Of a stretch of DNA of 62,368 nt, positions 30,829 to 50,978 are shown piece after piece (position 1 is the stretch's first letter; each line of letters starts with the position of its first letter). A program made the translations under genes and the position numbers. The stretch comes from a bacterium (lineage in GTDB: Bacteria; Bacillota; Clostridia; Lachnospirales; Lachnospiraceae): positions 1 through 62,368 of the forward strand of contig JAUNJY010000023.1 of the NCBI GenBank assembly GCA_030535455.1. Direction: 5' to 3'. The notes beneath the pieces were generated by a model. That model worked only from the letters and a program-made list of their open reading frames with translations. It was not told the DNA's origin and made no database searches.

Positions 30829-31575
30829 ATGTCAGGACATTCTAAGTTTGCAAATATTAAACATAAAAAAGAAAAAAATGATGCAGCGAAGGGTAAAATC
30901 TTCACTAAGATCGGCCGTGAAATTGCAGTAGCTGTAAAAGAAGGTGGAGCTGACCCTAATAACAACTCCAAATTAAAAGACGTTATTGCGAAAGCAAAAT
31001 CAAATAATATGCCAAATGATACAATTGACAGAAGTATCAAAAAAGCTGCTGGTGCAGACGGCGACGTTAACTACGTAACAGTAACTTACGAAGGTTACGG
31101 TCCAAACGGTATCGCAGTAATCGTTGAAACATTAACAGATAACAAAAACAGAACAGCTAGTAACGTTAAAAATGCCTTCACAAAAGGTAATGGTAACGTA
31201 GGTACTCCTGGATGTGTATCTTTCATGTTCGACAAAAAAGGTCAAATCATCATCGCAAAAGAAGAATGCGAAATGGATGCAGATGACTTAATGATGATCG
31301 CTTTAGACGCTGGCGCAGAAGACTTCAACGAAGAAGACGACAGCTTCGAAGTATTAACAGATCCAAACAACTTCTCAGAAGTTCGTGAAGCTCTTGAAAA
31401 CGAAGGAATCCCAATGGCTCAAGCCGAAGTAACAATGATCCCTCAAACATGGGCTGAACTTACAGACGAAAAAGACATCAAATTCTTCAATAAGACTTTA
31501 GATCTTTTAAATGAAGATGACGATGTTCAAAACGTTTACCACAACTGGGATGAACCAGCTGAGGATGAAGAATAG
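30829..31575 (+). CDS. yebC: YebC/PmpR family protein
   Basis: A 248-residue cytoplasmic protein with the invariant start [22 protein letters not shown] and the three-domain YebC fold. The family was long annotated as transcription regulator. Recent work on bacterial YebC proteins and mitochondrial TACO1 supports a role in translation of proline-rich stretches alongside EF-P. Codon use is strongly biased as in efp. Its last codons (from 31522) and its 3' flank with terminator recur three more times downstream, which is unusual for a single-copy housekeeping gene. Confidence 0.94.
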
Positions 31576-31725
31576 TAGGAAATTCAAGGGTTTCCGAGAT
31601 ACTTTATTCCAAATTCTTCTGAAAAACGTGTCAGTGATGGTATACAAACACTTTTTTAGAAGCTTAAGGTAGAATGTACAAAACCTCTTATACGTATGTC
31701 GCGTATAGGAGGTTTTTTGTATTAC
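31522..31725 (+). repeat. yebC tail repeat, copy 1 (parental)
   Basis: The 3' end of yebC ([17 protein letters not shown]), about 100 nt of 3' flank containing GTGTCAGTGATGGTATAC, and the terminator at 31681-31718. Related copies start at 33180, 34750 and 35682. Confidence 0.85.
31681..31718 (+). terminator. Terminator after yebC
   Basis: AAACCTCTTATACG / CGTATAGGAGGTTT stem (one G-T pair) and a T-tract. The same stem is found at 33315 and 35836. Confidence 0.85.
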
Positions 31726-31863
31726 AATTGGATACATTTCGAATTCTTTACGTCTTGAAAAAGTGCATTATAAGACTTGTAAAATTATATCGAGTTGTGT
31801 AGACTTAATTAAAGTTGATAAAGTAAAGAACTATTAATAAGATAATATGGAGGTGAGTTTTAC

Positions 31864-32532
31864 ATAAGAAGAAAGATGAGATATCCTTTCGGAATGATTA
31901 TTATATGCATAATAGTACTATGCAGCATTAGTATCTCGTTAATAATGAAAGATACAGAATATAGATATGATGTAACTCAACATAGAATGCAATGGTGGTT
32001 ACAAGAAATAAATTGGTCAGAAAAACGAATGAAGTTAGGTAATGAAAAGGTAAAGATAGCAATTATTGACTCTGGTGTAGATGTTTCACATCCTGACTTG
32101 AAGAAAAGTAATATTAAGGAACATATGATTTCATCATTAAATAAAGTAGATAATAATTATGATTATGAACATGGGACATTAGTTGCAGGTATAATATCGG
32201 CTATGCCAAACGATGAGCGTGGTATATTAGGAATTAATCCGGAAGTAGAAGTGATTTCTATTGATGTAACTTCCAATGATTATGTTGCAGATGGAATGAG
32301 TATTACAAATTTATTTGGTGATAGTAATTATTATAGACAGTGGAAAGTTAAACCTGACAAAAACATAAAAGGGCAATCTAGAAAAATTGAACCAGGTATC
32401 TCTGTAGTTAATAGGAACACATCTTACAAATCAGGTGCATTTACAAGTATTAGAGATTGCAAGATAGTTGGAACACTACCTTGGAGTGCTAATGGGTGTG
32501 TAGTTGAAGCAGGACAATATTGGTCATACTAA
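31864..32532 (+). CDS. Truncated subtilisin-like (S8) protein lacking the catalytic serine
   Basis: An N-terminal membrane/signal segment (GMIIICIIVLCSISISLIM) precedes half of an S8 peptidase domain: the Asp motif IAIIDSGVD and the His motif EHGTLVAGIISAMP are present. The sequence then leaves the S8 pattern, with no GTS serine motif, and ends in an unrelated Gly/Ser-rich tail (SYKSGAFTS...GQYWSY). It is therefore probably inactive as a protease or a chimera. GGAGGTGA lies 7 nt before an ATA (31864), not an ATG; the first ATG (31876) is 19 nt away. I place the start at the ATA. First gene of cassette 1. Confidence 0.6.
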   Translation: MRRKMRYPFGMIIICIIVLCSISISLIMKDTEYRYDVTQHRMQWWLQEINWSEKRMKLGNEKVKIAIIDSGVDVSHPDLKKSNIKEHMISSLNKVDNNYDYEHGTLVAGIISAMPNDERGILGINPEVEVISIDVTSNDYVADGMSITNLFGDSNYYRQWKVKPDKNIKGQSRKIEPGISVVNRNTSYKSGAFTSIRDCKIVGTLPWSANGCVVEAGQYWSY

Positions 32533-32547
32533 TTTGAAGGATATATA

Positions 32548-33171
32548 ATGGAAAAAAGAAAAAAGCATATTTTCATAGTAATAACACTGGTAATACTAAT
32601 TATGCAATTATTTAATAACAAAAATTATTTTGCAATGCAAGCAAAGGCTATATCAGAAGATGATAAGATAAATACAGAACCAATTCAGGATTTAATCTGT
32701 GAGGTAATAAAGATAGCAAAGACTAGAAATGAAATATCAAAGGATGCATACGTCCGTTGTGAGATTACCTTTGATTCTGCCTATAATAATCGTTTACTGG
32801 AATTATCTATACTAGATAGAAATGAAGAAAATGAATTAGTTGAATACGTATATACTAAACAGAATGGTGAAACTTTATCAGAAACTCTTCGTGCAGGTAC
32901 AGAGTATGACGAAGAATTTGGAGGAAACTTGTTATTATCAGATTATGAAATATTAATCTCAAATATAAATAGTTTATCTTTAAATCATGATGAAAATGAT
33001 AGTTATTTCTTAACGGTAAGAGATTATAAGCCAGGACGATATTTGCAAGATGAGAATAATCAGGCATTTGAAGTATTAAAAAATGAAATAAGAAAAATTG
33101 ATACATTGGATGAACGTATTGGTATATCAATTAAAGGAAAGAACGAAGTTTCAGTAGTTTTAAAGAAATAG
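32548..33171 (+). CDS. Secreted protein of unknown function, cassette 1
   Basis: Not recognised. The 207 residues open with a signal or anchor (KKHIFIVITLVILIMQLF), then an acidic, Asn-rich soluble domain with ITFDSAYNNRLLELSILDRNEE and YFLTVRDYKPGRYLQDENNQAFE. A decayed paralogue with about 80% identity over about 100 residues is at 36054-36401. It lies 15 nt after the truncated subtilase, so the two are probably coexpressed. Base composition is AT-richer than the core genes, suggesting transfer. Confidence 0.65.
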   Translation: MEKRKKHIFIVITLVILIMQLFNNKNYFAMQAKAISEDDKINTEPIQDLICEVIKIAKTRNEISKDAYVRCEITFDSAYNNRLLELSILDRNEENELVEYVYTKQNGETLSETLRAGTEYDEEFGGNLLLSDYEILISNINSLSLNHDENDSYFLTVRDYKPGRYLQDENNQAFEVLKNEIRKIDTLDERIGISIKGKNEVSVVLKK

Positions 33172-33179
33172 TAAGAAAA

Positions 33180-33353
33180 GGGATGAACCAGCGGAAGACG
33201 AAGAATAGTTGATTTTATGCGGGTTTCCGCAATTTCATTGTTCTGAAATCTCTGAAAAATCGTGCCAGTGATGGTATACGAACACTTTTTTAGAAGCTCA
33301 GTTACGAATGTACAAAACCTCTTATACGTATGTCGCGTATAGGAGGTTTTTTG
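33180..33353 (+). repeat. yebC tail repeat, copy 2
   Basis: Starts with the last nine codons of yebC (WDEPAEDEE and stop, 33180-33208), then the 3' flank and the terminator (33315-33352) closely matching copy 1. It directly follows the stop of the cassette 1 gene. Confidence 0.85.
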
Positions 33354-33631
33354 ACTACTGGCAATGCCGGTGCGTTTCCAGATAGATCTAGCTTTAAGTA
33401 AAATACTCCCTATACGGAAAAAACTCCTATGCCTATAATATTTAAGGATTACTCATCTGTATTTAAAATGCGTGAAGCTGCATAAAGGTAATAAAAAAAT
33501 ACTATATAATCGCGCGAATAACAACGAATTAAAAGATATTATGGTTTTTGTTGACTATATATGAAATATATGGTAAAAAGGGATTAAGAGACGTCTTAAT
33601 TAATAAAATAGACTTAATGGAGAAAATAGTT
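33354..33631 (+). other. Noncoding stretch ahead of cassette 2 with a promoter
   Basis: The start of the stretch reads as a short remnant (TGNAGAFPDRSSFK then stop) that I cannot place. A likely promoter TTGACT (33551-33556), 17 nt, TAAAAA (33574-33579) lies further on. No other gene is seen. Confidence 0.4.
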
Positions 33632-33660
33632 ATGAAAAAAGACTAGGTATTTGTTTAAGC

Positions 33661-34161
33661 ATGATTTGTATTACGCGTAAACCATATGTAAGAGAATCGA
33701 GTTCAAATAGCCCTACGGTTAGTGCAGGATCAGCTGTAGATGCAGTTGTTAAGGCGATACATACAGGGATTAGTAAGACATATGTAACGGATATGTTGAA
33801 AGCAGCAGCGGTTTCGGTTGTAAAGGGTAATATTCAAAAGGCAGTATATCCGCCAAGAACTCAAAAATTTAGCTTTTATTACGGCATTGAAGGATATATT
33901 TATGATACAACTAGAGAAAATGCATATGTTGAGATATTTGAAGAATGGTCTAAGTGTTGGACAGAATTAGGGTTTAATAATGATGGAGAATTAGATTATC
34001 AGCTAAAGTCTTATCCTAATAGTTATCCAATACCTCATTGGGAGAGTAATTTATGCGCTGTAGCTTTTCCAAAAGCGCAAAGAGTACTAGAAATTTATAA
34101 TAATAATCTCAAAGTTTATAAAGTTTGGAAACATGGAAAAGGTAATGGTATCGGATACTAA
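33661..34161 (+). CDS. Unknown small protein, cassette 2; probable N-terminal frameshift
   Basis: Not recognised. The open frame from 33661 gives 166 residues with a small-residue-rich stretch (SAGSAVDAVVKAIHTG) and an aromatic C-terminal half (FSFYYGIEGYIYDTTREN...HWESNL). Just upstream an ATG at 33632 is followed by six A residues and soon a stop (MKKD). Adding one A to that run would give MKKRLGICLSMICITRK, joining this frame as a signal-like N-terminus. So the gene is either disrupted at a homopolymer, phase-variable, or misread there. Confidence 0.5.
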   Translation: MICITRKPYVRESSSNSPTVSAGSAVDAVVKAIHTGISKTYVTDMLKAAAVSVVKGNIQKAVYPPRTQKFSFYYGIEGYIYDTTRENAYVEIFEEWSKCWTELGFNNDGELDYQLKSYPNSYPIPHWESNLCAVAFPKAQRVLEIYNNNLKVYKVWKHGKGNGIGY

Positions 34162-34212
34162 AGCAGAAAGACATTACTACATAAATGAAAGTATAAAAAG
34201 GGGGGGAATGTT

Positions 34213-34710
34213 ATTAATATTAAAAGAAGTAAAAAAGCTCTTGTTACTTTTGCTGCTGTAACAGCATTAATATTGTTTCTCATTGGTATATTTGTAGGTG
34301 TTGGAATACAGAAGTGGAGAGAAAATTCAAAAGAAATAATATTTGAATATATTAGCTCAATACCCATGCTACTTACAATTACGGAAAAAGAAATGAAACA
34401 AAAAGATGAATTGCTTGATTTGTTTAAGAAGTACGGTCAAGATGATCCGGGTTCAGATATAGCGGGGGTACATGTAATACCTAAAGAACAAGAAGAATTG
34501 TTAATGTTGCTTCCTGAAGGAAGCAACATTAAGTTTTGCATGGAAGCTGAGGGAGAGCCGGAAATTTGTTATGACTTGAATGGCATTAACTATCATGTGT
34601 ATTATGGAGAGGGGTATGCTGCAAAGCTTGTTGAGTTCGAATCTAACAATAAACGGTATTATATTTATAATCAAAATAATGAAGAGTTTGAATGTCACAG
34701 AATGAAGTGA
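34213..34710 (+). CDS. Membrane-anchored unknown protein, cassette 2 (paralogue of 37057-37545)
   Basis: Not recognised, but clearly paralogous to the product at 37057: both have an N-terminal membrane span, then ITEKE, LLPE(G/D)S, Y.L.GI.YH and a C-terminal NN.EF.C.R. The body holds a single span (LVTFAAVTALILFLIGIFVGVG) and a soluble acidic domain. Similarity extends back to an ATT at 34213 with a GGGGGGG run 6 nt upstream. The only standard start in frame (TTG 34273) would cut the membrane span. I use 34213. An immunity or lipoprotein-like role is a guess. Confidence 0.5.
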   Translation: MNIKRSKKALVTFAAVTALILFLIGIFVGVGIQKWRENSKEIIFEYISSIPMLLTITEKEMKQKDELLDLFKKYGQDDPGSDIAGVHVIPKEQEELLMLLPEGSNIKFCMEAEGEPEICYDLNGINYHVYYGEGYAAKLVEFESNNKRYYIYNQNNEEFECHRMK

Positions 34711-34749
34711 TATATTCTAAGTTGCAAAAGGTGAAACAGCAGTGGTTAA

Positions 34750-34890
34750 GATGTTCAAAACGTTTACCACAACTGGGATGAATCAAATGAGGATGAAGAA
34801 TAATCTTCAAAGCCTTTATTTATAAGGGTTTTAGCAATCGTAACTAACACGTAATACTCAAAAAAACGTGTCAGTTACGGTGTACGAAAC
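34750..34890 (+). repeat. yebC tail repeat, copy 3
   Basis: 34750-34803 encodes [17 protein letters not shown] and a stop, almost the yebC C-terminus, followed by a diverged 3' flank with AACGTGTCAGTTACGGTGTAC. The standard terminator is replaced by another hairpin at 34913. Confidence 0.8.
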
Positions 34891-34912
34891 AAAATTCAAT
34901 ATAAAATTTAGT

Positions 34913-34970
34913 GACGCACCAATTTGTCTGTATGTCATCACTGACAGCAGATGGAGAGGTGCGTCTTTAT
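34913..34970 (+). terminator. Terminator-like hairpin in cassette 3
   Basis: GACGCACC / GGTGCGTC 8-bp stem with a long loop containing smaller pairings, then CTTTAT. The T-tract is weak. Confidence 0.4.
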
Positions 34971-35116
34971 GTTATTATGGTAAAAATAGGAGAAACAAAA
35001 AACATTGTAACACTGGTGGATTGCAATACTTATTATCGTTCATTTATAAAAAATAAAAAGTTGGATATTATACTCTAAGAGATTATATATATAAGTATAT
35101 AAGAGAGGAAATAATA

Positions 35117-35596
35117 ATGAAATATGCGATAGTTTTTAGTAGTGTAACAGGAAACACAAGAAAATTGGCAGAAGCGATACAGAAACGAGTTAATACATGT
35201 TATTTCGGAGAACCTTCCGAGGCAGCATTAGAAGCAGATTTTATATTTATAGGATTTTGGGCTCAGAAAAACTCATGTGGAGCAGACACGAAAAAGTTTA
35301 TAGAAAGCCTTTCAGGAAAGAAAGTATTTATATTTGGTACCGCCGGATATAATAGCACAAAACAATATTTTGATGAGATTTTAAAAAGTGTAGAAGTATT
35401 AGTTCCAAAATCTAATACAATTGTAGGAACATACATGTGCCAAGGTAAAGTATCTGATGTTATGAAAGATCGAATCAAGCAGGCGAAGCCTGAAATGTAT
35501 GAAGCAATAAAAGATAATCTTGTAGAAGCAGAAAGCCATCCAGATGAAGTCGATATTAGCTCATTAATAACAGAACTTGATAAATTAGCTTTTTAA
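35117..35596 (+). CDS. Flavodoxin family protein, cassette 3
   Basis: A 159-residue FMN-binding electron carrier candidate. SSVTGNTRKLAEAI at residues 8-21 is the phosphate-binding loop; IFIGFWAQKNSCGADTKKF and FIFGTAGYN supply the flavin-flanking loops. It resembles the Flavodoxin_3/BilS-type proteins common in gut Lachnospiraceae. It is intact, with AGAGGAAATAA upstream, and sits alone between yebC tail copies 3 and 4. Its redox partner is not identifiable here. Confidence 0.82.
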   Translation: MKYAIVFSSVTGNTRKLAEAIQKRVNTCYFGEPSEAALEADFIFIGFWAQKNSCGADTKKFIESLSGKKVFIFGTAGYNSTKQYFDEILKSVEVLVPKSNTIVGTYMCQGKVSDVMKDRIKQAKPEMYEAIKDNLVEAESHPDEVDISSLITELDKLAF

Positions 35597-35681
35597 ATCT
35601 GTGTTAGCACCTGTTTTACACAAAAATAAAGAATGACTTCTGAGAACAGTAGCATAAAAGTAGGTATTTTCGATTATGCGG

Positions 35682-35876
35682 AAATATTTAAAACGTTTAC
35701 CACAACTGGAATGAAACAGCTGAGGATGAATATTAGGAATTCAAAGTTTTCACAGATTTCTTAATTCAAAATCATTTGAAAGATCGTGCAAGTGATGGTA
35801 TATGAATAGTTTACAAATAATAAGATAGAATAGACAAAACCTCTTATATGTATGTCGCGTATAAGAGGTTTTTATG
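35682..35876 (+). repeat. yebC tail repeat, copy 4
   Basis: The yebC C-terminal codons are recognisable (NVYHNWNETAEDEY then stop, with the CAA codon before them now TAA), followed by the 3' flank and the terminator stem (35836-35873). Beyond it, 35880-36030 resembles the region after the first terminator (31720-31830), with ATTCTTTACGTCT and AAAGACTTGTA blocks. Confidence 0.8.
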
Positions 35877-36053
35877 TTGTACAATGAGATTTGTTTTATA
35901 TTCTTTACGTCTCGAAGAGGTGAAAACTATATGCCTCCACCACTTTATTCGGCATAAAAAGAGCATTAAAAGACTTGTAGAATTATATTACATTATGTAG
36001 AATTGATTACAGCTGACAAAAAATAAAAGGCCTATATTGGTCATACTAATCGC

Positions 36054-36401
36054 TTGCTGGAATTATCTATACTAGATCGTAATGAAGAAAATGAATTAAT
36101 TGAATACGTATATACGAAGCAGAATGGTGAAACTTTAACAGAAACTCTTCGTGCAGACACAGAGTATGACAAAGAATTGGGAGGAAACTTATTATTATCA
36201 GAGTATGAACTATTAATCTCCAATATAAATAGTTTAGCTTTAAATTGTGATAAAAATGATAGATATTTTTTAACCGTAAGGGATTATAAGCCAGGACAAT
36301 ATTTGCAAGATGAGAATAATCAGGCATTTGAAGTATTAAATGATGAAATAAGGAGAATAGATGAAAGTTTGGACAATACAACCAGTAGAAGTAATGAATA
36401 G
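36054..36401 (+). pseudogene. 5'-truncated paralogue of the cassette 1 secreted protein
   Basis: The open frame of 115 residues matches the middle of the protein at 32548-33171 (LLELSILDRNEENEL, YTKQNGETL, YFLTVRDYKPG, QYLQDENNQAFEVL). Just before it, 36035-36050 carries the last bases of the truncated subtilase gene (TATTGGTCATACTAAT). So an ancestral subtilase plus secreted-protein pair has lost the intervening sequence, joined at a short TAAT homology. The signal peptide is gone. Its 3' end runs into the DUF3841 gene. Confidence 0.75.
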
Positions 36402-36936
36402 TATTCATGACAAAGGATATTTTGCGTGTGATCGAAGAAAAGCCTCATTTAATGATATAGAATCGTTTCAATCAGCATATTTCTGGATGGTTAAGAAGAT
36501 GGATGAAAAAGGTATTATTCATCCAGCAGGGTTAGAGTTTCCAATATGGTGTTGGCATACAAGAAATGGGAAGCATAAAAAACCAGATTTAAGAAATGCA
36601 GCATATGCAGAACGAGGAAGGAAATGTGTTTGTCTTGAATTAGAAGTTCCAGATCAGGAAATACTTTTATCGAATTATGACACTTGGCATATTGTCTTAA
36701 ATCAATGGTGGTTTAATGATAGTAATACTGAAGAGGAATATTATGAACATGAAAAACTGTTCGAGACCTTAGATGAGAATACCAAGAAGGCAGTTATGGA
36801 AGAAAGCTGGGATAAGATATTTAATATAACTAGTAAAGAAGATAGAACTACGATTAACTGTGAATATGTTCAAGGCGTTTTTTGGGTACTAAAAAAAGAA
36901 TATATAAAAAAGGTACAAGAATTTGTAGCTAGATAA
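36361..36936 (+). CDS. DUF3841 domain protein
   Basis: 191 residues: VWTIQPVEVMNSIHDKGYFACDRRK at the start, FPIWCWHTRNGKHKKPDLRN in the middle and DTWHIVLNQWWFND later, the conserved blocks of DUF3841. No biochemical role is established. It overlaps the 3' end of the pseudogene by 41 nt and has AAGGAG 4 nt before the ATG. Confidence 0.8.
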   Translation: MKVWTIQPVEVMNSIHDKGYFACDRRKASFNDIESFQSAYFWMVKKMDEKGIIHPAGLEFPIWCWHTRNGKHKKPDLRNAAYAERGRKCVCLELEVPDQEILLSNYDTWHIVLNQWWFNDSNTEEEYYEHEKLFETLDENTKKAVMEESWDKIFNITSKEDRTTINCEYVQGVFWVLKKEYIKKVQEFVAR

Positions 36937-37056
36937 AATGTTCTTATGTTTGGTGATGATGCTGGAAGTGAAATTAAGACGTCCTAAATTTGCTGTAATC
37001 CCTATCTTTATAAATTGATGGAAAAGTTAAGGTTATTTAGTGAGGAGGAAAGGGTG

Positions 37057-37545
37057 ATGGTTATAAAGACACAAAAGAAAGTATACATAATAGTGTTAGT
37101 GGCATTTGCGTTGGGAATAATTGTAGGAGGAGCTATCCAATATAAACGATTAATAAAAAGTATGGATACAAGGATTCTGTATAGCAATAATTCCCCAACG
37201 ATAATCACAATTACTGAAAAAGAGATAGAAGCAAAGGAGACGCTATATAAACTACTTGCAGAGTATGGAGAAGTTGATAGGAATAATACGGATTTGACTG
37301 TGGAGGAGACATCAAGGAAAGTAAATGATATATTTACAACTCTGCTTCCTGAAGATAGTCAAGTTGAGTATTGTAAAAGGGCTGGTGGAGATATCGAAGT
37401 TTATTATCAACTTGAAGGAATTTTCTATCATCTATTATATCTGGATCAAAAAGTACAAAAGTGTATTACTGTTAACTATAATAATAAAGAATATTGTATT
37501 ATTAATACAGATAATCAGGAGTTTGATTGTACTAGGATAAATTGA
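37057..37545 (+). CDS. Membrane-anchored unknown protein, cassette 4 (paralogue of 34213-34710)
   Basis: A 162-residue protein with one N-terminal span (YIIVLVAFALGIIVGGAIQ) and an acidic domain: TITEKEIEAKETLYKLLAEYG, TTLLPEDSQVEYC, VYYQLEGIFYHLLY, NNKEYCIINTDNQEFDC. It shares this layout with the cassette 2 protein, including a conserved cysteine pair. The ATG at 37057 has GAGGAGG 8 nt upstream. The function is unknown. Confidence 0.65.
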   Translation: MVIKTQKKVYIIVLVAFALGIIVGGAIQYKRLIKSMDTRILYSNNSPTIITITEKEIEAKETLYKLLAEYGEVDRNNTDLTVEETSRKVNDIFTTLLPEDSQVEYCKRAGGDIEVYYQLEGIFYHLLYLDQKVQKCITVNYNNKEYCIINTDNQEFDCTRIN

Positions 37546-37645
37546 GTATAGACGCTTATAGTAAGATGTTTGATTATTGAAAGCCTGGTAATTTATTTAA
37601 AACTTGGCTATAATGGATTTAAAATAGTAATAGGAGAGTGTACAT

Positions 37646-38677
37646 ATGAAAAGTGAATATATTATTTCAACAATAAAAACATTAGTAGAGATTCCAAGTC
37701 CGTCTGGATTTACAAAAGACGTAATGGCTTTCGTGGAGAAGGAAGCTAAAGAAATGGGCTATGATAGTTATTATACCAATCGTGATGGATTGATTATCGA
37801 GGTAAAAGGTAGTTCTTCTAAGACCATTGGACTTTCTGCTCATGTAGATACATTAGGAGCAATGATCCGTTCCATTAATTCCGATGGAACAATTAATTTT
37901 ACTGAAGTTGGCGGCTATACACTGCAGAGTGTGGAAGGATGTTATTGCAAGCTTCATACAAGAGAGGGCAATGTATATACAGGAACTATATTGTGTAAGA
38001 GCCCTAGCGTACATGTTTATGATGATGCCAGAACATTGGAACGAAATGAAAGGAATATGATGATTCGTTTGGATGAAGAGGTTTCTAGTAAAGAGGATGT
38101 AGAGAAACTTGGCATTATGGCGGGAGATTACATTAGTCTTGATCCAAAATTTGAATACACCAAATCGGGATTTGTGAAATCAAGACATCTGGATGATAAG
38201 GCAAGTGTGGCAGTTTTATTAGGACTTTTAAAGGAAATGAAGGAAGAAAATATAATTCCGGAAAACCAGCTTAAAATATTAATTAGCAATTATGAAGAAG
38301 TTGGATTTGGTGCAAGCTATCTTCCAGCGGATATCGAAGAAATGCTTGCTATTGATATGGGAGCGGTTGGAGATGATTTAAATGGTTCAGAAACAAAAGT
38401 GTCTATTTGTGCAAAGGATGCCACTGGACCATACGATTACGAAATGACAAATCGTCTAATTGCCTTATCAAAAGAAAAGGAAATTCCATTTGTGGTGGAT
38501 GTGTTCCCACATTATGGTTCGGATGTTTCTGCTGCACTTCGAGGTGGTAATAATATACGTGGGGCGTTAATTGGACAAGGTGTCAGTGCATCTCATGGTA
38601 TGGAAAGAACTCATGAAAAGGGAATCATGGCAACGCTGGAATTAGTGAAGGCTTACGTAACTTGTAAAGAAAACTAA
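37646..38677 (+). CDS. M42 family metallopeptidase (glutamyl aminopeptidase/endoglucanase-like)
   Basis: A 343-residue di-metal aminopeptidase. Metal ligands and catalytic residues are visible: SAHVDTLG (His and Asp), HLDDKAS (bridging Asp), NYEEVGFG (catalytic Glu, ligand Glu), AIDMGA (Asp) and SHGMERTHEKG (His). It is cytoplasmic, with no signal. It is alone, framed by its own ribosome site (ATAGGAGAG) and a strong terminator. Confidence 0.92.
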   Translation: MKSEYIISTIKTLVEIPSPSGFTKDVMAFVEKEAKEMGYDSYYTNRDGLIIEVKGSSSKTIGLSAHVDTLGAMIRSINSDGTINFTEVGGYTLQSVEGCYCKLHTREGNVYTGTILCKSPSVHVYDDARTLERNERNMMIRLDEEVSSKEDVEKLGIMAGDYISLDPKFEYTKSGFVKSRHLDDKASVAVLLGLLKEMKEENIIPENQLKILISNYEEVGFGASYLPADIEEMLAIDMGAVGDDLNGSETKVSICAKDATGPYDYEMTNRLIALSKEKEIPFVVDVFPHYGSDVSAALRGGNNIRGALIGQGVSASHGMERTHEKGIMATLELVKAYVTCKEN

Positions 38678-50917: not shown

Positions 50918-50978
50918 TCGTTTACGGGTAATACTAACCTAGAAAGTTAGTGTATTGCTTCGGAAAGCGAGGTTTTTT
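50918..50978 (+). promoter_or_regulatory. Structured leader with terminator-like stem over the ribosome site
   Basis: AACCTCG (from about 50914) pairs with CGAGGTT (50967-50973), followed by TTTTT and the start codon of the DUF2680 gene. An inner hairpin AATACTAAC / GTTAGTGTATT lies between. The only Shine-Dalgarno-like bases (GCGAGG) are in the outer stem. It may be a terminator, an attenuator, or a translational switch. Confidence 0.5.

Follow-up and report, generated by a model that had tools for sequence, protein, structure and literature searches.

Copies of the yebC 3' end in a Lachnospiraceae genome: probable remnants of elements that integrate behind yebC

In the present study, we analyzed a stretch of 62,368 nucleotides (hereafter the window), which represents positions 1 to 62,368 of the forward strand of contig JAUNJY010000023.1 in a Lachnospiraceae genome (GCA_030535455.1; G000 in our numbering; 4.35 Mb, 94% complete, and 7.7% contaminated). 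Downstream of its intact yebC gene, the end of this gene recurs in tandem, and each copy is followed by its own small set of genes. It is very probable that this array consists of stacked left ends, decayed and devoid of an integrase, of site-specific integrative elements that attach at the 3' end of yebC. The window contains the gene ends (tails) and the characteristic stretches behind them (leaders), and relatives carry an integrase gene behind yebC together with a displaced yebC tail farther downstream. A preliminary description, made from the sequence alone, had proposed repeated insertion at the yebC 3' end as one of two readings; the integrases of relatives, at the same site and behind the same leader DNA, strongly support this one.

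Results

The cassettes are flanked by att-like (attachment-site-like) copies of the 3' end of one target gene. There are four tails; when the entire 4.35-Mb assembly was searched, the three extra ones were recovered at E 1.6e-43, 8.6e-38, and 8.3e-17, and the best match outside the array reached E 0.019. The leaders behind the tails are of two types. Copies 1, 2, and 4 have one common flank type, whereas the flank of copy 3 differs (41-45% identity overall to the others); this second type occurs intact in G001, a genome of the same genus. The preliminary description had seen four copies of the yebC end with one shared terminator. All four copies are real; however, tail 2 comprises only the last 29 nt of yebC, and because copy 3 has a flank of the other type, the shared terminator is valid for copies 1, 2, and 4 only. 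Moreover, in relatives, its hairpin belongs to the integrase leader and is not a yebC terminator alone. The similarity of copies 3 and 4 is not confined to the terminator stem, a possibility that the description had set against its own reading. Among leaders 1, 2, and 4, the identity varies with the aligner (for leaders 1 and 2, 76% with MAFFT, 83% in a partial alignment output, and 85% over 116 nt).

The integrase of relatives is a tyrosine recombinase of approximately 300 amino acids (aa) that is encoded directly downstream of yebC. In G001, 172 bp separate yebC from the integrase start, and the distance to a second yebC tail is a further 9.2 kb; the respective distances in G033, which belongs to another genus, are 226 bp and 6.6 kb. 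Among 397 genomes of the family, five (G001, G033, G371, G193, and G229) carry integrases of this clade, at 51% identity or more, and the next matches are at 32%. Four of the five adjoin yebC, and that of G229 lies behind the Hsp90 gene (htpG). The integrase gene of G193 is broken by frameshifts, and that of G371 is cut short. Duplication of the yebC tail on the same contig was detected in G000, G001, G033, G193, and G371, four of which carry the integrase at yebC. Candidate duplicates in G101 and G414 were rejected because both pieces lie at contig ends, as was that in G365, in which the second match is 36% identical. A count of GTNTAYCAYAAYTGG in the 397 genomes gave three same-strand matches in G000, G027, and G417, among the places listed; it was set aside, the matches being on different contigs in G027 and far apart in G417.

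A scan of 84,980 species genomes with two peptide patterns yielded 29 integrase loci: 19 homologues at 43% identity or more, three N-terminal fragments, and seven at 29% or less. yebC lies directly upstream of the integrase in 16 of the 19 homologues and in all three fragments. L092, one of the other three homologues, is the Hsp90 case and the same locus as that of G229. In L105, the 3' end of an acetolactate synthase small-subunit gene is repeated over 106 bp, and L093 begins at the contig edge in the apparent end of a Clostridium yebC (by eye). The locations of L092 and L105 suggest target switches. The hosts include Lachnospiraceae, Clostridium, Inconstantimicrobium, Christensenella, Sedimentibacter, Anaeromonas, Terrisporobacter, and Cellulosilyticum. 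In a tree of 19 clade members and 10 background integrases, the clade was separate (support 100/99), and the yebC label changed four times (at least three changes being forced) versus 10.0 times in shuffles, with contig-edge rows scored as not yebC.

The integrase has a Phage_integrase domain (PF00589, E 1.2e-31). Tyrosine recombinases are characterized by the motifs R, H-x-x-R, H, and Y. R148 and H245-x-x-R248 were invariant in a four-row alignment of the integrase, and the H and Y were present in the three untruncated rows. A search of plasmids with the yebC tail gave no match. The best matches of the integrase were at 36% identity in plasmids and 32% in phages (20 of 23 phage records listed); therefore, these collections hold no close member among the matches listed. 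Viral contigs contained two relatives, L119 (53%, starting at a contig edge) and L120 (48%, partial, residues 1-86).

The leaders of the window resemble those of the elements. Leader 2 matches the yebC-integrase stretch of G193 in 139 of 145 columns (96%), and leader 3 agrees in 152 of 173 columns (88%) with the G001 DNA between the stop codon of yebC and the start of the integrase gene. The match of tail 3 and leader 3 to G001 stops nine bases inside the integrase gene. Leaders 1 and 4 both match G193, the former at 84% over 134 columns by blastn (126 bits; shuffle maximum 34.6) and 72% over the whole leader by MAFFT, the latter at 78% over 106 columns (81.5 bits; shuffle maximum 31.0) and 69% over the whole leader. 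Overall, window and element leaders matched at 81.5-235 bits versus shuffle maxima of 28-35 bits (the best of 300 shuffles each). The left end, a yebC tail plus a leader with a hairpin, is thus common to the cassettes of the window, leaders 1-4 each matching G193 or G001.

The corresponding host sequences are less similar. The first 684 nt of yebC are 78% identical to those of G193 and 81% to those of G001; the respective values are 68% and 71% for argR, and 56% and 59% (ungapped) for the argR-yebC gap. Since a non-coding leader is more alike than the neighboring coding genes, horizontal arrival is indicated, twice and from different element lineages. Leaders 2 and 3 are nearer to foreign elements than the yebC genes of the hosts are to each other, which indicates that copies 2 and 3 are separate insertions. 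Cassettes 1 and 4 have cargo in common and may have arisen by duplication or from two separate insertions of the same type of element.

Distal yebC tail repeats were found in G001 (132 bp), G033 (153 bp), G371 (41 bp), G193 (138 bp), L094 (115 bp), L095 (126 bp), and L101 (53 bp), and these seven elements span 6.4-12.3 kb. The shortest repeats and tails 3 and 4 of the window begin near the codons D-V-Q-x-V-Y-H-N-W or a few bases earlier. Because of this near-common left edge, we take these codons as the putative integration core. An attempt to place the crossover from differences between proximal and distal tails failed.

Candidate empty sites were also detected. In G027, the gene found behind the element of G371 directly follows yebC, with the caveat that G371 keeps approximately 2 kb more beyond its distal tail. 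In G003, of the same genus, a differing sequence without a leader follows yebC as far as the end of the contig, 124 bp downstream (by eye). Collinearity between the window and G001 extends from approximately 16.5 kb to yebC and is regained at position 50955 (649.9 kb in G001); between these points, the open reading frames (ORFs) of the window of at least 130 aa had no match in 590-707 kb of G001 (E 1e-8). The original yebC end of the window was not found. In G002, a decayed yebC tail (79% over 56 bp) is present, as is an M42 aminopeptidase gene like that which follows the array. In this genome, a short M42 fragment and the full M42 gene are on different contigs (L082, L133; C203, C240). A leader-type hairpin (36 bp at 94%) lies directly behind the full gene, and there may be another remnant there.

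No integrase remnant was found in 31501-37700: the best tblastn match (E 0.18) consisted of seven residues translated from the leader itself, and the best blastn match was 25 bp at E 0.016. A clade integrase was not found at E 1e-25 in the G000 assembly, which is 94% complete. The absence of an integrase, as initially described, is therefore true of the window and extends to what was found in G000; however, relatives carry one at the site. The window holds remnants, not members, of yebC-site elements because the clade tyrosine recombinase is absent. Integrase-less leaders were also found behind the element of G001 (38 bp at 95%, E 6e-11; 51 bp at 92%, E 3e-15) and that of L101 (62 bp at 76%, E 9e-6), and by eye in G371. 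In L101, this second leader is followed by apparent decayed first codons of an integrase gene (by eye). The integrase may have been deleted while a cassette adjoined yebC, with selection keeping the gene tail and terminator.

In the elements, a hairpin and a T-run lie directly before the integrase start. A Shine-Dalgarno match was found in 15 of 21 leaders, and it was at least 80% paired upstream in 13 of the 15, versus 63 of 220 control ORFs, which were mechanically called. The two failing leaders were L096 (75% paired) and that of G001 itself (50%). Six leaders (L094, L095, L097, L098, L111, and G371) had no motif by the rule, partly as a result of misplaced starts, and were left unscored. 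Judging from the predicted pairing, the hairpin would usually hold the ribosome-binding site of the integrase. We hypothesize that it ends yebC transcripts and silences the integrase.

Seven elements were delimited (L043, L044, L077, L078, L094, L095, and L101). Their 61 ORFs comprise nine integrases or pieces thereof, seven small serine recombinases of 190-224 aa (one in each element), and 45 others. No relaxase family was detected at E 0.001 in the 61 ORFs, 25 of the 45 non-recombinase ORFs having no Pfam match at all. The G193 element (L078) encodes a type I restriction-modification set and proteins with TIR, RelA/SpoT, and DndB domains, and one of its scanned proteins matches the PADLOC spbK model. 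G371 encodes an HNH protein, L094 and L095 encode SprT-like proteins, and G001 and L101 encode ResIII-helicase proteins. Within the DNA examined, 10 of 21 loci had a resolvase-like gene downstream of the integrase, and none of the 21 had one upstream; the upstream DNA was short in several loci, and the resolvase model was built from seven of them.

The features of the window are listed in Table 1. The gene sets behind the tails are as initially described, with Pfam matches for the S8 fragment, the flavodoxin, and the DUF3841 protein. The paralogy noted between cassettes also held, at 91% over 300 bp between cassettes 1 and 4 and at 34-35% aa identity between the membrane proteins of cassettes 2 and 4. 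However, duplication of whole modules with subsequent divergence applies to no cassettes other than 1 and 4, and even these may be two insertions of related elements. No relaxase family matched the seven cassette proteins scanned with Pfam. The remnant behind leader 2 shares 84% identity over 98 bp with DNA at the beginning of a Y1_Tnp (IS200-like transposase) gene on contig C40 of G000, and its part at 33447-33579 matches contig C100 of G000 at 78%. The region of the cassette 2 membrane-protein gene (34153-34738) has a 91% DNA copy at positions 4842-5426 of C100, and this copy adjoins another IS200-like stretch. BilS, the model matched by the flavodoxin, is named together with bilirubin reductase in a passage of PMC10769871. 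More Flavodoxin_3 genes are present in G000 (contig C82), G001, and G002.

Table 1. Features of the yebC array and its surroundings in the window.
Feature	Position	Strand	Remarks
yebC, intact, 248 aa; target gene, last codons = putative attachment region	30829..31575	+	91-92% aa identity to yebC of G001 and G003
Tail 1, end of intact yebC	31522..31575	+	First 33 bp identical to tail 3
Leader 1, post-stop DNA	31576..31719	+	Hairpin CCTC..GAGG and T-run; homologous to G193 integrase leader
Cassette 1, subtilase fragment without Ser part	31876..32532	+	Pfam S8 profile positions 2-90 of 288 only
Cassette 1, putative secreted protein (by eye)	32548..33171	+	ORF; 91% DNA identity over 300 bp to 36043-36342
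Tail 2	33180..33208	+	Only last 29 nt of yebC
Leader 2	33209..33353	+	G193-type
Remnant resembling IS200-family left end	33354..33579	+	Directly behind leader 2
Cassette 2, 166-aa protein	33661..34161	+	No Pfam match
Cassette 2, small membrane protein (by eye)	34273..34710	+	86% aa paralogue on G000 contig C100
Tail 3	34750..34803	+	94% to tail 1 over 53 nt; E 8.3e-17 genome-wide
Leader 3	34804..34975	+	G001-type
Cassette 3, flavodoxin	35117..35596	+	NCBIfam BilS, 156.5 bits, barely over 155-bit cut-off
Tail 4, decayed	35683..35736	+	In-frame stop and substitutions (by eye)
Leader 4	35737..35875	+	G193-type
Cassette 4, decayed copy of cassette 1 secreted-protein gene	36043..36401	+	91% over 300 bp
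Cassette 4, DUF3841 protein	36361..36936	+	Pfam E 1.5e-28
Cassette 4, membrane protein (by eye)	37015..37545	+	Paralogue of 34273-34710, 34-35% aa identity
M42 aminopeptidase gene, first gene past the array	37646..38677	+	Pfam Peptidase_M42 E 4e-75; homologue in G002

Discussion

An intact element carries the gene for an Xer-like tyrosine recombinase just inside its left end, preceded by the element's own last yebC codons and leader. We propose that integration at the core would give yebC the element's tail and a new terminator, and that the old tail would be displaced to the opposite end of the element. Subsequent elements would enter at the new junction, and tails would pile up. At least three, and probably four, elements would have arrived in the window, each of which would have lost its integrase by a deletion at or near the leader end and kept a small cargo. 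We infer integration, excision, the crossover position, and the order of events from this arrangement. The array is probably immobile in this genome now.

Several points weigh against this model. The leftmost 25 nt of the 54-nt tail are missing from tail 2, and the copy of the cassette 2 membrane-protein gene on C100 is without a matching yebC tail. A fifth tail, representing the original gene end, was not found before the next gene at 37646, so that the last cassette has no visible right end; a candidate near 37590 was inspected by eye and not accepted. No integrase or resolvase gene was recognized in the array, and, thus, movement of the cassettes of the window cannot be shown. A distal tail was not seen for 12 of the 16 yebC-neighboring loci, some of which have contigs or flanks that end early; one of them, L106, is G193, the distal tail of which lies outside the flank examined. 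When G001 and G371 are added, 11 of 18 yebC loci have no visible distal tail, which is partly due to the limits of flanks or contigs. In G193, the proximal and distal tails are identical over the last approximately 53 bp, and, therefore, the crossover was not located there. The search for tail duplications was insensitive, recovering two of the four tails in G000.

The main alternative in the preliminary description was unequal crossing-over between yebC tails, which would have multiplied one module whose copies then diverged. The cargo common to cassettes 1 and 4 (91% over 300 bp), together with their G193-type leaders, is consistent with such a tandem duplication, and the 33-bp stretch of identity between tails 1 and 3 would permit the recombination. 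However, leader 2 is nearer to another genus (96%) than to leader 1 (76-85%), and leader 3 is of the other type (41-45%) and 88% identical to the G001 element. Since copies 2 and 3 are each closer to a different foreign element than to their neighbors, unequal crossing-over alone is insufficient, and this alternative is largely refuted for these two copies. It also leaves aside the integrases at the same site in relatives, and we regard it as very unlikely for the array as a whole. The capture of foreign DNA flanked by yebC tails through homologous recombination, with no integrase involved, is extremely improbable. Long tail repeats (up to 153 bp) would aid this process; however, the shortest repeats are 41-53 bp, the integrase adjoins yebC in 16 of the 19 homologues, and the yebC site clusters on the integrase tree (four label changes versus 10.0 when shuffled).

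Alternatively, the cassettes, each a tail, a leader, and cargo, may never have carried an integrase and may have been moved in trans by the enzymes of relatives. The similarity of the window to the elements stops at, or at most nine bases past, the integrase start codon, and integrase-less leader remnants recur in G001, L101, and G371 (by eye), as expected for such non-autonomous cassettes. In contrast, cassette 2 has the IS200-like remnant at the expected place of the integrase, the second leader of L101 precedes apparent decayed integrase codons (by eye), tail 4 is decayed, and a clade integrase was not found in G000. We consider this origin unlikely, and prefer a stack of left ends that lost their integrases. 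We also entertain, with little confidence, a broader scheme: a Clostridia-wide family in which the tail and the leader move together as a single end, the hairpin terminates yebC and hides the integrase ribosome-binding site during read-through, integrase-less cassettes serve as substrates in trans, and the yebC end is an integron-like dock with its last codons swapped at each insertion.

A work by Pavlovic from 2004 is reportedly a reference on the accretion of cis-mobilizable elements (CIMEs). According to passages of PMC7563491 and PMC5704250, decayed elements of this kind accrete in tandem at the 3' ends of genes such as fda, rpsI, and rpmG in streptococci, and classical CIMEs with cargo measure 1.2-13 kb. 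The array of the window resembles these arrays, as described there: they also consist of integrase-less decayed elements in tandem with copies of the target-gene 3' end, and the cassettes of the window have no detected integrase and no relaxase family among the seven proteins scanned. In contrast, the target is yebC. Moreover, CIMEs derive from integrative and conjugative elements or integrative mobilizable elements, whereas no relaxase Pfam family was detected in the 61 ORFs of the parent yebC elements, of which 25 match no Pfam family at all. Given that no relaxase gene was detected in these parents, we class the array as CIME-like, but not as a formal CIME.

The parent elements resemble mobile genomic islands, which, in a passage of PMC7563491, have their own integrase but no other signature gene and measure 28-38 kb. 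They similarly carry an integrase and cargo with no recognized conjugation signature, at 6.4-12.3 kb; however, their site differs, and they carry a small serine recombinase (seven of seven delimited elements). The integrase profile matches XerD (PDB 1a0p, E 1e-26) and the NCBIfam XerA, XerC, and XerD models. However, the G001 integrase, the only one scanned, is under all curated NCBIfam cut-offs, and, unlike the Xer proteins, the yebC-site integrase sits in a mobile element. Integron cassette arrays also consist of small tandem cassettes, each with a repeated recombination region. In contrast, the G001 integrase scores 61.2 bits versus the integron-integrase cut-off of 265, and the repeat in the present case is the tail of a protein-coding gene that is restored with each insertion.

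The kind of system, namely, the decay and tandem accretion of islands, is well described. However, our literature search on yebC with integrative elements, integration sites, integrases, or phage, outside which subscription journals mostly lay, found no description of the yebC site or this integrase clade. The preliminary description, which knew of no system anchored on yebC, agrees with this result.

The present study defines a testable family of islands whose landing site is conserved in Clostridia, among them gut Lachnospiraceae and Christensenella. Such islands provide a reason for the differing DNA behind yebC between relatives, and the footprints of lost elements are recognizable from the gene tail and the integrase leader. 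The leader is also a compact example of a single hairpin that may act both as the terminator of a host gene and as the lid on the ribosome-binding site of an integrase.

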